A stretch of 64,000 bases of DNA, taken from contig NZ_JAAKGS010000010.1 in assembly GCF_011043555.1 (NCBI RefSeq), positions 124,001-188,000 of the forward strand. Direction: 5' to 3'. The stretch's first letter is position 1. Each line of letters opens with the position of its first letter. This stretch comes from Sphingobacterium sp. SGR-19. Its GTDB lineage: Bacteria; Bacteroidota; Bacteroidia; Sphingobacteriales; Sphingobacteriaceae. A model generated the notes under the pieces. That model had not been told where the DNA came from and did not search any database. It saw nothing but the letters and a program-made list of their open reading frames with translations. Below, one piece after another: positions 57,111 through 61,900 of this stretch. Made by a program: the position numbers and the translations under genes.

Positions 57111-57434
57111 TTAGAAAGAATAGTTATCTTTCTGCGCATATTCGGCTGAGTCTTCTTGATTCGGTTCGTAGCGTTTTTCAACAACTTCTTGGTTAGCCTT
57201 GATGTAATCCACAACCTCTGTCAACCCTTCAGCAAATTTCTCAAAATCTTCTTTGTACAAGAAAATCTTGTGCTTAATAAATTGTCCATCTTCAAAACGC
57301 TTTTTGCTTTCCGTGATGGTCACATAATAATCGTTAGAACGAGTTGCTTTTACATCAAAAAAATAAGTACGTTTTCCCGCTCTCACCTTTTTTGAAAATA
57401 CCTCTTCACGCTCTTTGTTTTCAAAATCTCCCAT
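57111..57434 (-). CDS. PUR-alpha-like DNA/RNA-binding protein (DUF3276)
   Basis: This 107-residue protein matches the DUF3276/PUR family of Bacteroidota: 'EEVFSKKVRAGKRTYFFDVKATRSNDYYVTITESKKRF' and 'FIKHKIFLYKEDFEKFAEGLTEVVDYIKAN' form one PUR repeat. The best-known member is a dimeric nucleic-acid-binding protein resembling human Pur-alpha. The C-terminus ('YEPNQEDSAEYAQKDNYSF') is short and acidic. The gene stands alone. It may bind single-stranded DNA or RNA; the targets are unknown. Confidence 0.9.
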   Translation of the reverse strand: MGDFENKEREEVFSKKVRAGKRTYFFDVKATRSNDYYVTITESKKRFEDGQFIKHKIFLYKEDFEKFAEGLTEVVDYIKANQEVVEKRYEPNQEDSAEYAQKDNYSF

Positions 57435-57572
57435 TAGTATTGTAAGTATTTAAGTTTAAATCCTTTTTCGCTATAAATATATAATAATTAATTTCATGTT
57501 TCCAAATTAAATTAAAAAAAACGTTTATAATTGGACATACGAACACCAACAGGGATAAAGAGAGCAAAAAGG

Positions 57573-57610
57573 TTTCACCGAAAAAAGTGCGGCGTTTACC
57601 GAAAAAGTGC
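57573..57610. promoter_or_regulatory. tandem operator-like direct repeats upstream of the LytTR operon
   Basis: TTCACCGAAAAAAGTGC (57574) and TTTACCGAAAAAGTGC (57595) are near-identical copies whose ACCG cores are 21 bp apart, two helical turns. LytTR regulators are known to bind such paired direct repeats. They lie ~45-80 bp before the promoter element at 57654, so they could serve for autoregulation by the LytTR protein two genes on (inference). Confidence 0.6.
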
Positions 57611-57653
57611 ATTGTATTGCCTATTTTGGCTAACGAATTATTAAGTATTGCCT

Positions 57654-57661
57654 TACTTTTG
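57654..57661 (+). promoter_or_regulatory. putative -7 promoter element of the LiaF-LytS-LytTR operon
   Basis: TACTTTTG fits TAnnTTTG and is 24 bp before the first ATG. A TTTG lies 25 bp upstream, somewhat far; activation from the direct repeats could compensate. Confidence 0.5.
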
Positions 57662-57685
57662 AATCAAACATAAATACAAGTAGTA

Positions 57686-58567
57686 ATGGAAAGAGAAAGA
57701 GATCATAAAACACCACCTCCTATTCCCCCTCGCGGTAACAACAAAAGTGCAAATATCGTTGGGTTTGCGATCGTATTTCTGGGCGCGGCTCTCCTAATAC
57801 GTAATTTGGACTTAGGTTTTCCGTTTCCTAGGAATATCTTTGGTTGGGAAATGATTTTGATCATCATCGGGATAGTGATTGGCGTTAATTCTAAATTTGA
57901 AAAGAAATCTTCAGTCATTTTGATTGCTATTGGTGGGCTTTTCTTTCTCAAAAGGTTTCTAGATGTTCCTTTCTGGGGTACCATCTTTCCTATCATGGCT
58001 ATCATCATTGGCATCTATTTTATCGCACGGAACCGTAATCAACCCACCCCACCTGTACCTCCGCATACACCGTCAGGCAAAGACACAGGCAAAGATGAAT
58101 TTGACTGGGATAAACGAGTGGATGTCACGAATGAAACCGTCGATGCGTATAAGTCTTCTTTTGAAGAGCCTGGCGATACATATCATGGTAATGAACCACA
58201 AAAAAAACGAACGTATACCTATGAAGGTGAGAATTATATAAAAGTCGAATCGATATTTGGTTATGCGAAAAAGATCATTTTTTCAAAAAATTTTCTCGGT
58301 GGCACGATGACCAATCTCTTTGGTAGTACTGAAATCAATTTATTACAAGCTGATATACAGCAACCAGTAGCTTTAGATGTGTTTCAACTATTCGGAAGCA
58401 CCAAAATTATTGTTCCGCCACATTGGGTGGTAGCGACGACTGCATCTTGCATCTTGAGTGAGAACGACGACCGACGCGTGATATTGACAAACGTAAAAGA
58501 TCAAAACAAATGTCTGTATATTACCGGTACATCTATCTTTGGAAACATCACGATAAAAAATAGCTAA
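57686..58567 (+). CDS. LiaF/LiaI-like transmembrane protein (DUF5668 and cell-wall-active-antibiotics response domains)
   Basis: This 293-residue protein has a Pro-rich cytoplasmic start (KTPPPIPPRGNN) and about four hydrophobic segments between residues 23 and 115 ('VGFAIVFLGAALLIRNLDLGF', 'WEMILIIIGIVIGV' and others). A linker follows, then a soluble beta-helical-like C-terminal domain ('KVESIFGYAKKIIFSKNFLGGTMTNLFGSTEINL' and 'VALDVFQLFGSTKIIVPPHW') like that of LiaF/VraT-type proteins that sense or modulate envelope stress. It is the first gene of a three-gene unit with a LytS-type kinase and a LytTR regulator. Confidence 0.82.
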   Translation: MERERDHKTPPPIPPRGNNKSANIVGFAIVFLGAALLIRNLDLGFPFPRNIFGWEMILIIIGIVIGVNSKFEKKSSVILIAIGGLFFLKRFLDVPFWGTIFPIMAIIIGIYFIARNRNQPTPPVPPHTPSGKDTGKDEFDWDKRVDVTNETVDAYKSSFEEPGDTYHGNEPQKKRTYTYEGENYIKVESIFGYAKKIIFSKNFLGGTMTNLFGSTEINLLQADIQQPVALDVFQLFGSTKIIVPPHWVVATTASCILSENDDRRVILTNVKDQNKCLYITGTSIFGNITIKNS

Positions 58568-58573
58568 CGTAGC

Positions 58574-59611
58574 ATGACGTTTAAACTAACGACAAAAAAT
58601 CGCTTAATTCATGTTACAGCATGGACCATCTGTATTTTATACTTTGCTGTTTCTTATTTCCTATTGTGGTGGGACTTTAGTCCGAAAGCGGTTACACCGT
58701 ATGAACCTATCATTGGTGCGCTTTCCATAACCATTTGTTGTTATCTTATTTACAGCACCCTTCAGTTTTATTTACCACGCAAGAACCAATATGTGAAGAT
58801 AATATTAATCTGCCTGGTATTGACTGTTGTGAGCATTGGATTGTCTATTTTTTTCCTAAACCAATTTTTTGATGGCTTTTCGCTTACACGTTTCTACCAG
58901 ATTTTACCATATCGCTTCATCATTAATTTCCTATTGTTATTGTGCGTGACGATTATTAACGTTGTTTGGAACATTCAAGAAGAATATGAGGAAAATAAAA
59001 AGAGAAAAGAGGAATCTGAGCGCATCTTAAGGGATGCTGAATTGTATAACCTACGACAGCAACTTCAACCTCACTTTCTATTTAATAGCCTGAACTCGAT
59101 CATTGCGCTTATCGGCATTAAGCCAGATGAGGCGCGCAATATGACGTTTCAACTCTCTGATTTTCTTCGTGGAACGATGCGGAAAGATGATAAACAGTTA
59201 ATTCCACTCGCTGACGAAATCGCGCATTTAAGGCTCTACCTTGATATCGAAAAAGTACGTTTCGGACATCGGCTAACGACAACTTTCTATTTACAAGAAG
59301 AGGCAAGTCAAGCTAAAGTCCCTTCGATGATCATCCAACCGCTACTGGAAAATGCCATTAAATTCGGTTTGTACAACGTAATAGGTAAAGTAGAAATCAC
59401 AATTGACATCCGGATCGAAAACTACATGTTGTATATTACAATTACCAATCCATTCGATTCTGATCAGTTTGAGAGCAGAAAAGGCACAGGCTTTGGGCTT
59501 TCCAGTATCCAACGTCGATTATTCTTGCTATATAGCCGTACAGATTTACTAGAGACTTCTATTCATGAAAATACATTTATATCAACCTTAAAAATTCCGC
59601 AATATGATTAA
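58574..59611 (+). CDS. LytS/YesM-type sensor histidine kinase
   Basis: This 345-residue kinase has four membrane helices in the first ~140 residues ('TAWTICILYFAVSYFLLWW' onward), a short coiled coil, and the His_kinase domain with the phosphorylation site in 'LRQQLQPHFLFNSLNSI'. The ATP-binding part includes 'PSMIIQPLLENAIKFG' and 'KGTGFGLSSIQRRL'. There is no extracytoplasmic sensor domain, so it may sense through its membrane part or through the LiaF-like neighbour, 6 nt upstream. It overlaps the regulator gene by 8 bp. Confidence 0.92.
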   Translation: MTFKLTTKNRLIHVTAWTICILYFAVSYFLLWWDFSPKAVTPYEPIIGALSITICCYLIYSTLQFYLPRKNQYVKIILICLVLTVVSIGLSIFFLNQFFDGFSLTRFYQILPYRFIINFLLLLCVTIINVVWNIQEEYEENKKRKEESERILRDAELYNLRQQLQPHFLFNSLNSIIALIGIKPDEARNMTFQLSDFLRGTMRKDDKQLIPLADEIAHLRLYLDIEKVRFGHRLTTTFYLQEEASQAKVPSMIIQPLLENAIKFGLYNVIGKVEITIDIRIENYMLYITITNPFDSDQFESRKGTGFGLSSIQRRLFLLYSRTDLLETSIHENTFISTLKIPQYD

Positions 59612-60341
59612 GATTATCATTATAGACGACGAACCGTTAGCCCGCATGGTTATCTCCCAATATTTGCAACAACATAACGATGTCGAAATAGTTGCCGAAT
59701 GTGGAGATGGGTTTGAGGGAGCAAAAATGATTCAACAAATGCGTCCTGATCTCATTTTTTTAGATATTCAAATGCCAAAGCTGACCGGATTTGAGATGTT
59801 AGAGATCCTCGATGAAATGCCAAACGTCATCTTTACAACAGCGTTTGACGAATTTGCTATTAAAGCTTTTGAGAAAAATGCCATAGACTATCTTCTAAAA
59901 CCCATTAACAAGGATCGCTTCGAACAGGCGTTAACAAAATTCAGGAACAATCACCATAGCAATACTCCAAGAGAAACTTCAGCAAAAGTAGAAGCTGCGC
60001 GAGAGGATGAAACATTAGAGCGGATTGTAGTTAAAAACGGTTCACAAATTAAGATTATTCCTGTACAACAGGTTATTTTTCTGGAAGCTTACGACGACTA
60101 TGTAAAAATTCATACGAAAGACGGTATGTTTCTGAAAAACAAAACGATGAGTTCCTTTGAAAAGCAGCTAGATCCAAAACAGTTTGTGCGAGTACACCGC
60201 TCATTTATCGCGAAAGTAGATCAACTTGCAAAAATTGAGCCTATGGAAAAAGAAAGTTACATCGCTACTTTGCTAACAGGCGAAAAAATCAATATCAGTA
60301 AATCGGGATATGCTCGTTTGAAGCAAATAATTGGTTTATAA
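59604..60341 (+). CDS. LytTR-family response regulator
   Basis: This 245-residue regulator has a receiver domain with the acidic pair 'IIIIDDEPLARMVI', phosphorylation Asp in 'PDLIFLDIQMPKLTGFEML' and Lys in 'YLLKPINKDRFEQAL'. A linker and a LytTR DNA-binding domain follow ('ERIVVKNGSQIKIIPVQQVIFLEAYDDYVKIHTKDG' and 'FVRVHRSFIAKVDQL'). It is the partner of the preceding kinase. The direct repeats at 57573-57610 are a plausible binding site. Confidence 0.94.
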   Translation: MIKIIIIDDEPLARMVISQYLQQHNDVEIVAECGDGFEGAKMIQQMRPDLIFLDIQMPKLTGFEMLEILDEMPNVIFTTAFDEFAIKAFEKNAIDYLLKPINKDRFEQALTKFRNNHHSNTPRETSAKVEAAREDETLERIVVKNGSQIKIIPVQQVIFLEAYDDYVKIHTKDGMFLKNKTMSSFEKQLDPKQFVRVHRSFIAKVDQLAKIEPMEKESYIATLLTGEKINISKSGYARLKQIIGL

Positions 60342-60454: not shown

Positions 60455-61900
60455 ATGATTCGTATATTATTTTTCTTATTGTTGACGTGCACTGCGCTGA
60501 CGGGACTGGGACAAACAAAGACAGAAGAAGCCAATCGGGCCGTTTTCAATAAAATAGAGTTTTTCATCAACACACAGATGACAGATTCTATCTACAACTT
60601 AGCCTCTGAAGCTTTTAGGGAGCAGGTTAGTAAAGACCAACTCGCCTTTATGTTACAAAATCTTTATCAACTAGGTAGAATAATAGATGTGGAAGTGGAA
60701 GATTTTAAAGGCCAGACTGCTACTTATCGAGTATCTTTTACAGCAGAACGTCAACTGCTCGCCAAATTAGCTGTAGATAGTACGTTTCGTTATACGACAT
60801 TAGCTTTTACTGCTACTGACAATAGTACCAAAAAAGTTGAAAAACCGGAAAAAGAAGAGGTGATCAGTCAGGTCGCAACCGAAACTCGGTTAGACTACTA
60901 TATAGATTCCGTAGCTAATACCTATATCAGAAAAGGGAACACACAATCTTTGTCAATAGCCGTTTTTCACAAAAACAAATACACAACATTTTTGTACGGT
61001 GAGACGGAGAAGGGAAACAATACGCTTCCCACAGAAAACACGTTATATGAAATTGGATCAATAACTAAAGTTTTTACTGCGACATTACTTGCTGATCTCG
61101 TCACAAAGGATGTTATTCGGTTGGATGACTCTATAATGTCCTTTTTACCCGATTCAGTTTCTTCTAATCCGGCATTAAAAGGAATTACGTTCAAAACCTT
61201 AGCTAACCATACTTCAGGGCTTCCTCGTATGGGAGATAACTGGAACCGCGTAGCTGGATACAATGAGAAAGATCCATTTGCTACTTATGACCAAAAAGCA
61301 CTTTTCAGCTTTCTGAAAAATTACAAAGCGTCGCGTGAGCCGGGCGAAGAGTATGAGTATAGCAACCTAGGCTATGGCTTGTTGAGCGAACTAATCGCTA
61401 TTGTCTGCAAAAAAAACTACATCCAGTGTTTAGAGGAAACGATTTTGAAACCTTTACAACTTAACCATACAACCGACAAGCCGGATGCAAAAAAACAACA
61501 GATAATTTCTCCTGGATTAGATAAAGAAGGAAATACAACACCATTATGGAATTGGGAAGCCTTGATAGGGGCCGGCGGCCTAAAATCCAACATAAGAGAT
61601 CTTATGCTATTTGCGGTGGAGCAATTTAAAATGCCGGAAAACGAATTGCAGAAAGCAATGGCCTTAACGAGACAATTTACTTTTTTCACACCGGAAAATC
61701 TGGACATTGGGCTAGCCTGGCGTATAAGTATGATGGAGGATGGAATTATATACTTCCACCACACCGGAGGAACAGCGGGTAGCAGCTCGTTTGTCGGGCT
61801 TTCTCCAGACACAAAAACAGCAGTGGTCATTTTATCCAATGCTTCCGAAAGTGTACTTCCAATCAGTAGGGAAATTATGGAGAAATTGTTAGCAGAGTAG
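60455..61900 (+). CDS. class C beta-lactamase-like serine hydrolase with N-terminal DUF3887-like domain
   Basis: This 481-residue exported protein has a signal peptide (MIRILFFLLLTCTALTGLG). A small alpha/beta domain (~25-110) resembles DUF3887 ('MTDSIYNLASEAFREQVSKDQLAFMLQNLYQLG'). A class C beta-lactamase/esterase-type domain follows, with SxxK in 'YEIGSITKVFTATLLADL', YxN in 'YEYSNLGYGLLSE' and 'HHTGGTAGSSSF' in place of KTG. HTG at the third motif is common in esterases and D-Ala-D-Ala-type hydrolases of the family, so hydrolysis of beta-lactams is not implied. It lies 113 bp after the LytTR gene. Confidence 0.85.
   Translation: MIRILFFLLLTCTALTGLGQTKTEEANRAVFNKIEFFINTQMTDSIYNLASEAFREQVSKDQLAFMLQNLYQLGRIIDVEVEDFKGQTATYRVSFTAERQLLAKLAVDSTFRYTTLAFTATDNSTKKVEKPEKEEVISQVATETRLDYYIDSVANTYIRKGNTQSLSIAVFHKNKYTTFLYGETEKGNNTLPTENTLYEIGSITKVFTATLLADLVTKDVIRLDDSIMSFLPDSVSSNPALKGITFKTLANHTSGLPRMGDNWNRVAGYNEKDPFATYDQKALFSFLKNYKASREPGEEYEYSNLGYGLLSELIAIVCKKNYIQCLEETILKPLQLNHTTDKPDAKKQQIISPGLDKEGNTTPLWNWEALIGAGGLKSNIRDLMLFAVEQFKMPENELQKAMALTRQFTFFTPENLDIGLAWRISMMEDGIIYFHHTGGTAGSSSFVGLSPDTKTAVVILSNASESVLPISREIMEKLLAE

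Follow-up and report, generated by a model that had tools for sequence, protein, structure and literature searches.

A three-gene operon in a 64,000-nucleotide stretch of the Sphingobacterium sp. SGR-19 genome (the window, taken at its full length) is preceded by three short sequence boxes in a 21-bp register, and the same arrangement stands at a fixed distance from the promoters of other genes in this genome and throughout the genus. The three consecutive genes encode a LiaF-like membrane protein, a LytS-type histidine kinase and a response regulator with a LytTR DNA-binding domain. From sequence comparison we propose, with a probability of roughly 0.78, that the LytTR regulator acts through the phased boxes to activate both its own operon and a Lia/Psp-like envelope regulon without PspA. 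The window belongs to a 4.6-Mb genome, and the locus is closest to Sphingobacterium species, with a regulator up to 96% identical. A preliminary description made from the letters of the window had suggested an operator and an autoregulatory circuit. Conservation, fixed promoter geometry and loss together with the operon lend this strong support at the level of sequence, but the scope was drawn too narrowly, as the evidence points to a multi-gene regulon.

Two near-identical repeats 21 bp apart had been noted upstream of the operon, and both are present: ACCGAAAAAAGTGC at 57577 and ACCGAAAAAGTGC at 57598, their cores separated by 21 bp. The motif itself had to be redrawn. In 57 orthologous upstream regions the conserved unit is TTYACCGA, with a second copy at 21 bp and a weaker third after 21 more. 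These regions rule out the full ACCGAAAAA(A)GTGC as the conserved unit, its AAAA(A)GTGC part being lineage-specific. The two copies first described therefore stand as members of a three-box operator, whose third box, GCCTA at 57619, is in the same register. Base counts give CCTA at this box in 42 of 42 distinct liaF contexts, and mostly [AG][TC]CTA in 82 target contexts. The pair TTYACCGA-N13-TTYACCGA occurs once in the window, with no mismatches, where 0.12 occurrences would be expected at up to two mismatches. Four exact pairs are found in the genome and none in its reversed control. Each of the 60 genus genomes has the exact pair, with 183 sites altogether against 0 for the reversed control. 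When gaps of 3-33 were allowed in these 60 genomes there were 350 matches, and gap 13, in a separate count, accounted for 183. Among the matches listed, many genomes share an invariant sequence, present in multiple copies, that holds two TTCACCGA at gap 9, and TTTACCGAGTGTTTACCGA with gap 3 recurs in four. A search for an RNA element returned no Rfam match across 57430-57700.

The boxes are conserved before LiaF well beyond the genus. We scored a relaxed pair (up to two mismatches of 16, at 21 bp) and shuffled each locus 20 times. The near loci were the window and L061-L110; 48 of the latter 50 bear the title Sphingobacterium, while L101 is titled Parapedobacter and L093 Sphingobacteriaceae. 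The relaxed pair precedes LiaF in all 51 (shuffles, 0/1020), in 18 of 19 hand-picked loci that represent 15 further genera of the family (2/380) and in six of seven distant loci (0/140; L111 and L113-L118, L116 being also titled Sphingobacterium). The sole miss of the 19, L373, has the pair with three mismatches, and its -7 box is still at +80. Left out of these counts were L112 and L119-L140, where LiaF had no match, and L388, which has no LiaF. Of the 50 near loci, 42 have the exact pair ahead of LiaF, and it occurs at no other place in those loci. The preliminary description had staked its idea on conservation of the motif upstream of orthologous operons; we examined this, the motif is conserved there, and the idea survived. 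A divergent DUF3276 gene is present in 50 of 50 near loci and not in the sampled stretches of the distant loci. We rejected an operator belonging to that gene, because the boxes still precede LiaF at distant loci with no DUF3276 gene in the sampled stretches.

The distance from the boxes to the promoter is equally constrained. TANNTTTG is the sigma-A -7 consensus in Flavobacterium psychrophilum, where it is placed at -12 to -5 (PMC9723704; here and below, PMC numbers refer to the accessible portions of the papers). Counted from the first base of box 1, it lies exactly at +80 in 35 of 42 liaF contexts of the genus, with three more at +81, and at +80 in 69 of 82 genus target contexts, with one at +81 and at most one at any other offset listed. 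In other genera, +80 holds for 15 of 19 liaF promoters and 13 of 21 target sites. One T is also strongly conserved at +57, in the -33 region. That the distance between boxes and -7 box stays fixed before unrelated genes argues strongly for an activator in contact with polymerase. The boxes had earlier been put 45-80 bp before the promoter, and this is corrected by the -7 box, which occupies 57654-57661 and follows the start of box 1 by 80 bp. Given the -12 to -5 placement (PMC9723704), transcription would start near 57666 and the boxes near -92, -71 and -50.

We defined the full grammar as two ACCGA cores plus the -7 box, 16 fixed bases in all. The genome search for the paired motif that had been called for earlier yields eight promoters in this genome that match the full grammar without mismatch, and at all eight the start codon of a gene follows 106-155 bp past the first ACCGA. 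The genes behind them are the LiaF operon, a 308-amino-acid LiaI/toastrack-like protein, a 65-amino-acid Pmp3-like protein and five secreted 141-amino-acid paralogues. The score for Pmp3 equals the cut-off exactly, and L143 falls slightly short of it for Lumazine_bd_2. The five secreted NTF2-like (Lumazine_bd_2-like) copies (L425-L429) lie on G000:C22 near 413, 12185, 22549, 24271 and 234840; one of them ends early. This family is also multi-copy behind the operator in some relatives. A ninth site, with one mismatch (L431, G000:C30:170236-170320), has three ACCGA boxes at 21-bp steps before a 91-amino-acid protein, which by eye resembles 73-amino-acid proteins near sites in L256 and L261. Eight full-grammar matches with two mismatches were not counted as sites, since the control gives six at up to two mismatches. 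PspA (PF04012) had no match at E 0.001 in a search that covered this genome and none of its relatives; the control for that search was positive in 9 of 14 named genomes.

Across the genus, we assigned to each site as its target gene the longest open frame whose ATG lies 45-500 bp downstream, and Pfam was run on representative target proteins. From the sites listed we picked by hand 83 target loci in 26 genomes, leaving LiaF-operon sites aside, so the family shares are no unbiased census: 46 NTF2-like, 15 LiaI/toastrack, 8 DUF4342, 5 OMP_b-brl_3/CarboxypepD_reg, 2 Pmp3 and 7 others, including one DUF2807. Outside any open frame of at least 100 amino acids lie 83 of 87 site rows, in which some sites are repeated by overlapping stretches. 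At L144, judged by eye from translations, an operator-bearing LiaI/toastrack gene is divergent from MlaE/MlaF-type lipid transporter-like genes.

Sites in other genera of the family precede related kinds of genes. Those in g35 precede PspC joined to a LiaI-TM region, and a perfect pair stands at the PspC gene in five of six g35 genomes with LiaF; PspC is not among the eight promoters of this genome. Further targets are a DUF4097 toastrack protein (g210), DUF2807 proteins (g34), Lumazine_bd_2 proteins (g209, g213) and OMP_b-brl_3 outer-membrane receptor-type proteins (g210, g213). Families were assigned by Pfam for L390, L394, L397, L399, L402, L403, L406 and L407; the remaining assignments rest on likeness. 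Four of the 21 sites lie inside long open frames; three of them (L389, L398, L408) look like chance matches, and the fourth, L404, still has a target gene downstream, at +136. The envelope link proposed at the outset thus finds support in LiaI/toastrack and Pmp3 proteins within the genus and in PspC, DUF4097, DUF2807 and outer-membrane receptor proteins elsewhere.

The sites also go with the operon. Among 121 family genomes, with LiaF presence scored as a profile match at E 1e-20 or better, the exact pair is found in 75 of 106 with LiaF and in one of 15 without (Fisher p 2.4e-6, uncorrected for kinship). In G544, the one LiaF-less genome with the pair, a natural deletion has taken out the entire kinase gene and most of LiaF, and regulator and site are retained together: at L388 (G544:C1:34500-36600) the operator is kept before the beginning of LiaF fused to the regulator, whose match runs from residue 22. 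The other 14 have no full-length regulator match above 40% identity. Within g35, G506 lacks the LiaF and regulator orthologues and keeps a PspC gene, and no pair stands upstream of that gene (best, 7 mismatches of 16).

Could these be genuine regulatory sites bound by some other protein, such as another LytTR regulator, with the LiaF operon merely one target? The genome does hold further proteins that match this regulator over most of its length at about 30% identity, which speaks for the idea, but the site stands at the LiaF operon in nearly all loci examined, including more distant Bacteroidota, and is absent from 14 of 15 LiaF-less genomes, some of which keep LytTR-like regulators at 36-40% identity. 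Together with the joint retention of regulator and site in G544, this leaves a different binder very unlikely, and we infer that the operon's own LytTR protein binds the boxes. The boxes might instead be repressor sites, through which the regulator shuts operon and regulon until stress relieves them, and position alone does not decide the sign of control. With the boxes upstream of the core promoter (box 3 probably about -50 to -43), the fixed -7 distance and the conserved T at +57, an activator beside polymerase fits better, and repression seems to us improbable. That the repeats arose by chance or from base composition is practically excluded: the lone 9-mer ACCGAAAAA is ordinary in the window, with 3 observed against 1.43 expected and 18 of 100 shuffles reaching 3, but the window, genus and orthologue controls contradict a chance origin.

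More room is left for a signal from outside the envelope, for instance a metabolite, as pyruvate is for BtsS, the membrane genes being incidental; on balance we still consider this unlikely. The regulator's closest NCBIfam model is BtsR, and among the targets a secreted NTF2-like family of no known function is the most frequent, both of which fit such a signal. Against it, the target proteins scanned include no inner-membrane transporter family, although some match outer-membrane receptor models, and the targets include LiaI/toastrack, Pmp3, PspC, DUF4097 and DUF2807 proteins; the kinase, too, matches only His_kinase and, under cut-off, a GHKL model.

Several observations count against activation of the operon and regulon by this LytTR protein. 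Not every site has TANNTTTG at +80: it is missing there from 13 of the 82 target contexts in the genus and from 8 of the 21 sites in other genera. The exact pair is missing in 31 of the 106 family genomes with LiaF, at least two of which (L376, L377) nevertheless have one-base variants of it, and G497 has LiaF with a site there and none at its PspC gene. At L117 the pair is on the strand opposite to the operon, as it is, by eye only, at L113. Other LytTR-type proteins are encoded in this genome. The 14 genomes lacking both LiaF and the pair are confined to four genera and most are small, so the co-loss test is suggestive, short of decisive. Outside the family, the exact pair is found 45 times in 380 genomes against 27 in the control; we therefore do not claim the regulon beyond the family, and there claim only the LiaF promoter, on the strength of the distant loci above.

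The features of the operon and its promoter are collected in Table 1.

Table 1. Operator, promoter and coding features of the LiaF-LytS-LytTR operon, in window positions.
Feature	Position	Strand	Basis or remark
Operator box 1, TTCACCGA	57574..57581	+	Window letters; kept in orthologues
Operator box 2, TTTACCGA	57595..57602	+	21 bp after box 1; kept in orthologues
Operator box 3, GCCTA, degenerate	57619..57623	+	21 bp after ACCGA of box 2; base counts
Sigma-A -7 box, TACTTTTG	57654..57661	+	Exactly +80 from first base of box 1
LiaF-like membrane protein, 293 amino acids, four transmembrane helices and C-terminal toastrack-like beta domain	57686..58567	+	PF22570, predicted structure, 4qrk
LytS-type histidine kinase, 345 amino acids, H167 in QLQPHFLFNSLNS	58574..59611	+	PF06580, hydropathy, alignment, model
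Response regulator with LytTR DNA-binding domain, 245 amino acids, proposed binder of the boxes	59604..60341	+	PF00072, PF04397

Pfam matches bear out the gene identities given in the preliminary description. The LiaF-like protein matches LiaF-TM over cut-off (PF22570, E 3.6e-16) and LiaF-like_C under it (PF09922, 22.5 against 29 bits). Its model has four helices and a C-terminal beta domain, with a mean predicted local distance difference test (pLDDT) score of 70 and mostly above 85 in the C-terminal part. The best structural match of the model is 4qrk, weak by Foldseek (E 0.022); a second comparison aligns model residues 178-293 with it at Z 10.1 and a root-mean-square deviation of 3.0 over 115 residues. 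4QRK is listed among toastrack structures (PMC11237479). The kinase matches His_kinase (PF06580, E 1.1e-25) and otherwise only HATPase_c_5 (GHKL), under cut-off. Hydropathy gives it four hydrophobic segments joined by short loops, and an extracytoplasmic domain is absent from its model (mean pLDDT 78), in agreement with the earlier statement that it has no outside sensor domain. In the regulator, Response_reg (PF00072, E 2.2e-24) and LytTR (PF04397, E 1.9e-23) both exceed their gathering scores. A gene of the serine beta-lactamase family (AmpH-like) follows the operon at window 60455-61900, and 46 of the 50 near loci also have it.

In the mechanism that we propose, 57574-57623 would be the operator of the LytTR regulator encoded in the same operon. 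The membrane would be where envelope damage is sensed, and the most likely sensor is the LiaF-like protein with its four transmembrane helices and toastrack domain, since the kinase has no outside domain of its own. A role for LiaF as sensor or brake would fit a kinase without an extracytoplasmic domain and the conserved operon linkage, and the LiaF-like partner would probably restrain or gate the four-transmembrane kinase. The kinase would phosphorylate the regulator, whose dimers would fill the phased 21-bp boxes. Filled boxes would activate the promoters with the fixed-distance -7 box, those of the LiaF operon, giving positive feedback, and of the envelope regulon. LytS and LytTR proteins would thus replace LiaS and LiaR in a Lia/Psp-like envelope stress response without PspA. 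We give about an even chance to the wider view in which Lia/Psp parts (LiaF, LiaI/toastrack, PspC, Pmp3) are placed under LytS/LytTR control through three-box, fixed-distance promoters and without PspA, with the secreted NTF2-like family, enlarged to five operator-linked copies here, as a new class of effector in the stress response.

The closest counterpart is LiaFSR of Bacillus and other Firmicutes, in which LiaF, with four transmembrane helices and a toastrack domain, is likewise encoded with a two-component system and LiaI-like proteins are among the targets. The LiaF-like protein has this architecture, with PF09922 under cut-off. In B. subtilis, LiaF is a negative regulator of LiaRS (PMC3543457), which serves here as an analogy only. 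LiaS bears a HAMP domain, and LiaR joins a receiver to a winged helix-turn-helix (PMC11237479); here, in contrast, the kinase is of the LytS type (PF06580) and not a HAMP-bearing LiaS-type kinase, and the regulator has a LytTR domain. The host, too, is a Gram-negative member of the Bacteroidota, and PspA/LiaH was not detected in its genome.

The regulator belongs with the LytTR response regulators in having receiver and LytTR domains and in the spacing of its proposed repeats. Usual LytTR sites are repeats of 9-11 nucleotides with spacers of 11-13, about two helical turns (PMC4847170), and the 8-nucleotide core, 13-nucleotide spacer and 21-bp period found here resemble operators such as that of YpdB in E. 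coli. Unlike those, the present sites have three boxes, the sequence TTYACCGA and a multi-gene regulon. Likeness to BtsS/BtsR (YehU/YehT) of gammaproteobacteria lies in the regulator, whose best NCBIfam match is BtsR (PRK11697); at 202 bits it falls under the equivalog cut-off of 246. The BtsR site, ACC(G/A)CT(C/T)A repeated with a 13-bp spacer, would have the ACCG core and the 21-bp period in common with the boxes. BtsS, however, is described as a seven-transmembrane pyruvate receptor (PMC10653868), and the kinase here has four hydrophobic segments.

LytTR domains have been found beside LiaI-LiaF-TM/toastrack proteins in Firmicutes, and it has been proposed that docking to toastrack domains may switch on transcription by way of LytTR domains or two-component systems associated with them (PMC11237479). 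The accessible portion of that work on PSP and toastrack contexts describes no operator, regulon or LytTR system in Bacteroidota. In Bacteroidota, PspC has been suggested to play a part in beta-lactam stress (PMC9239133), again with no operator or regulon described in the accessible portion. A sigma/anti-sigma envelope response (PMC9308784) and LytTR and kinase mutations in coevolved F. johnsoniae (PMC10197871) have, in their accessible portions, no bearing on this system. In the literature searched, with most subscription journals outside its coverage, we recognised no paper on a comparable operator or regulon of a LytTR protein in Bacteroidota. The parts and the class of switch are already known; what appears new within that literature is their combination, together with the promoter grammar and the regulon.

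To our knowledge, little is known of envelope stress signalling in Bacteroidota. The proposed system would supply one regulator, one operator grammar and a short conserved list of targets for it, and would tie DUF4342, DUF2807, DUF4097 and Lumazine_bd_2-like families, whose roles are unknown, to a single switch. It also suggests that Lia/Psp modules can plug into different classes of two-component system.

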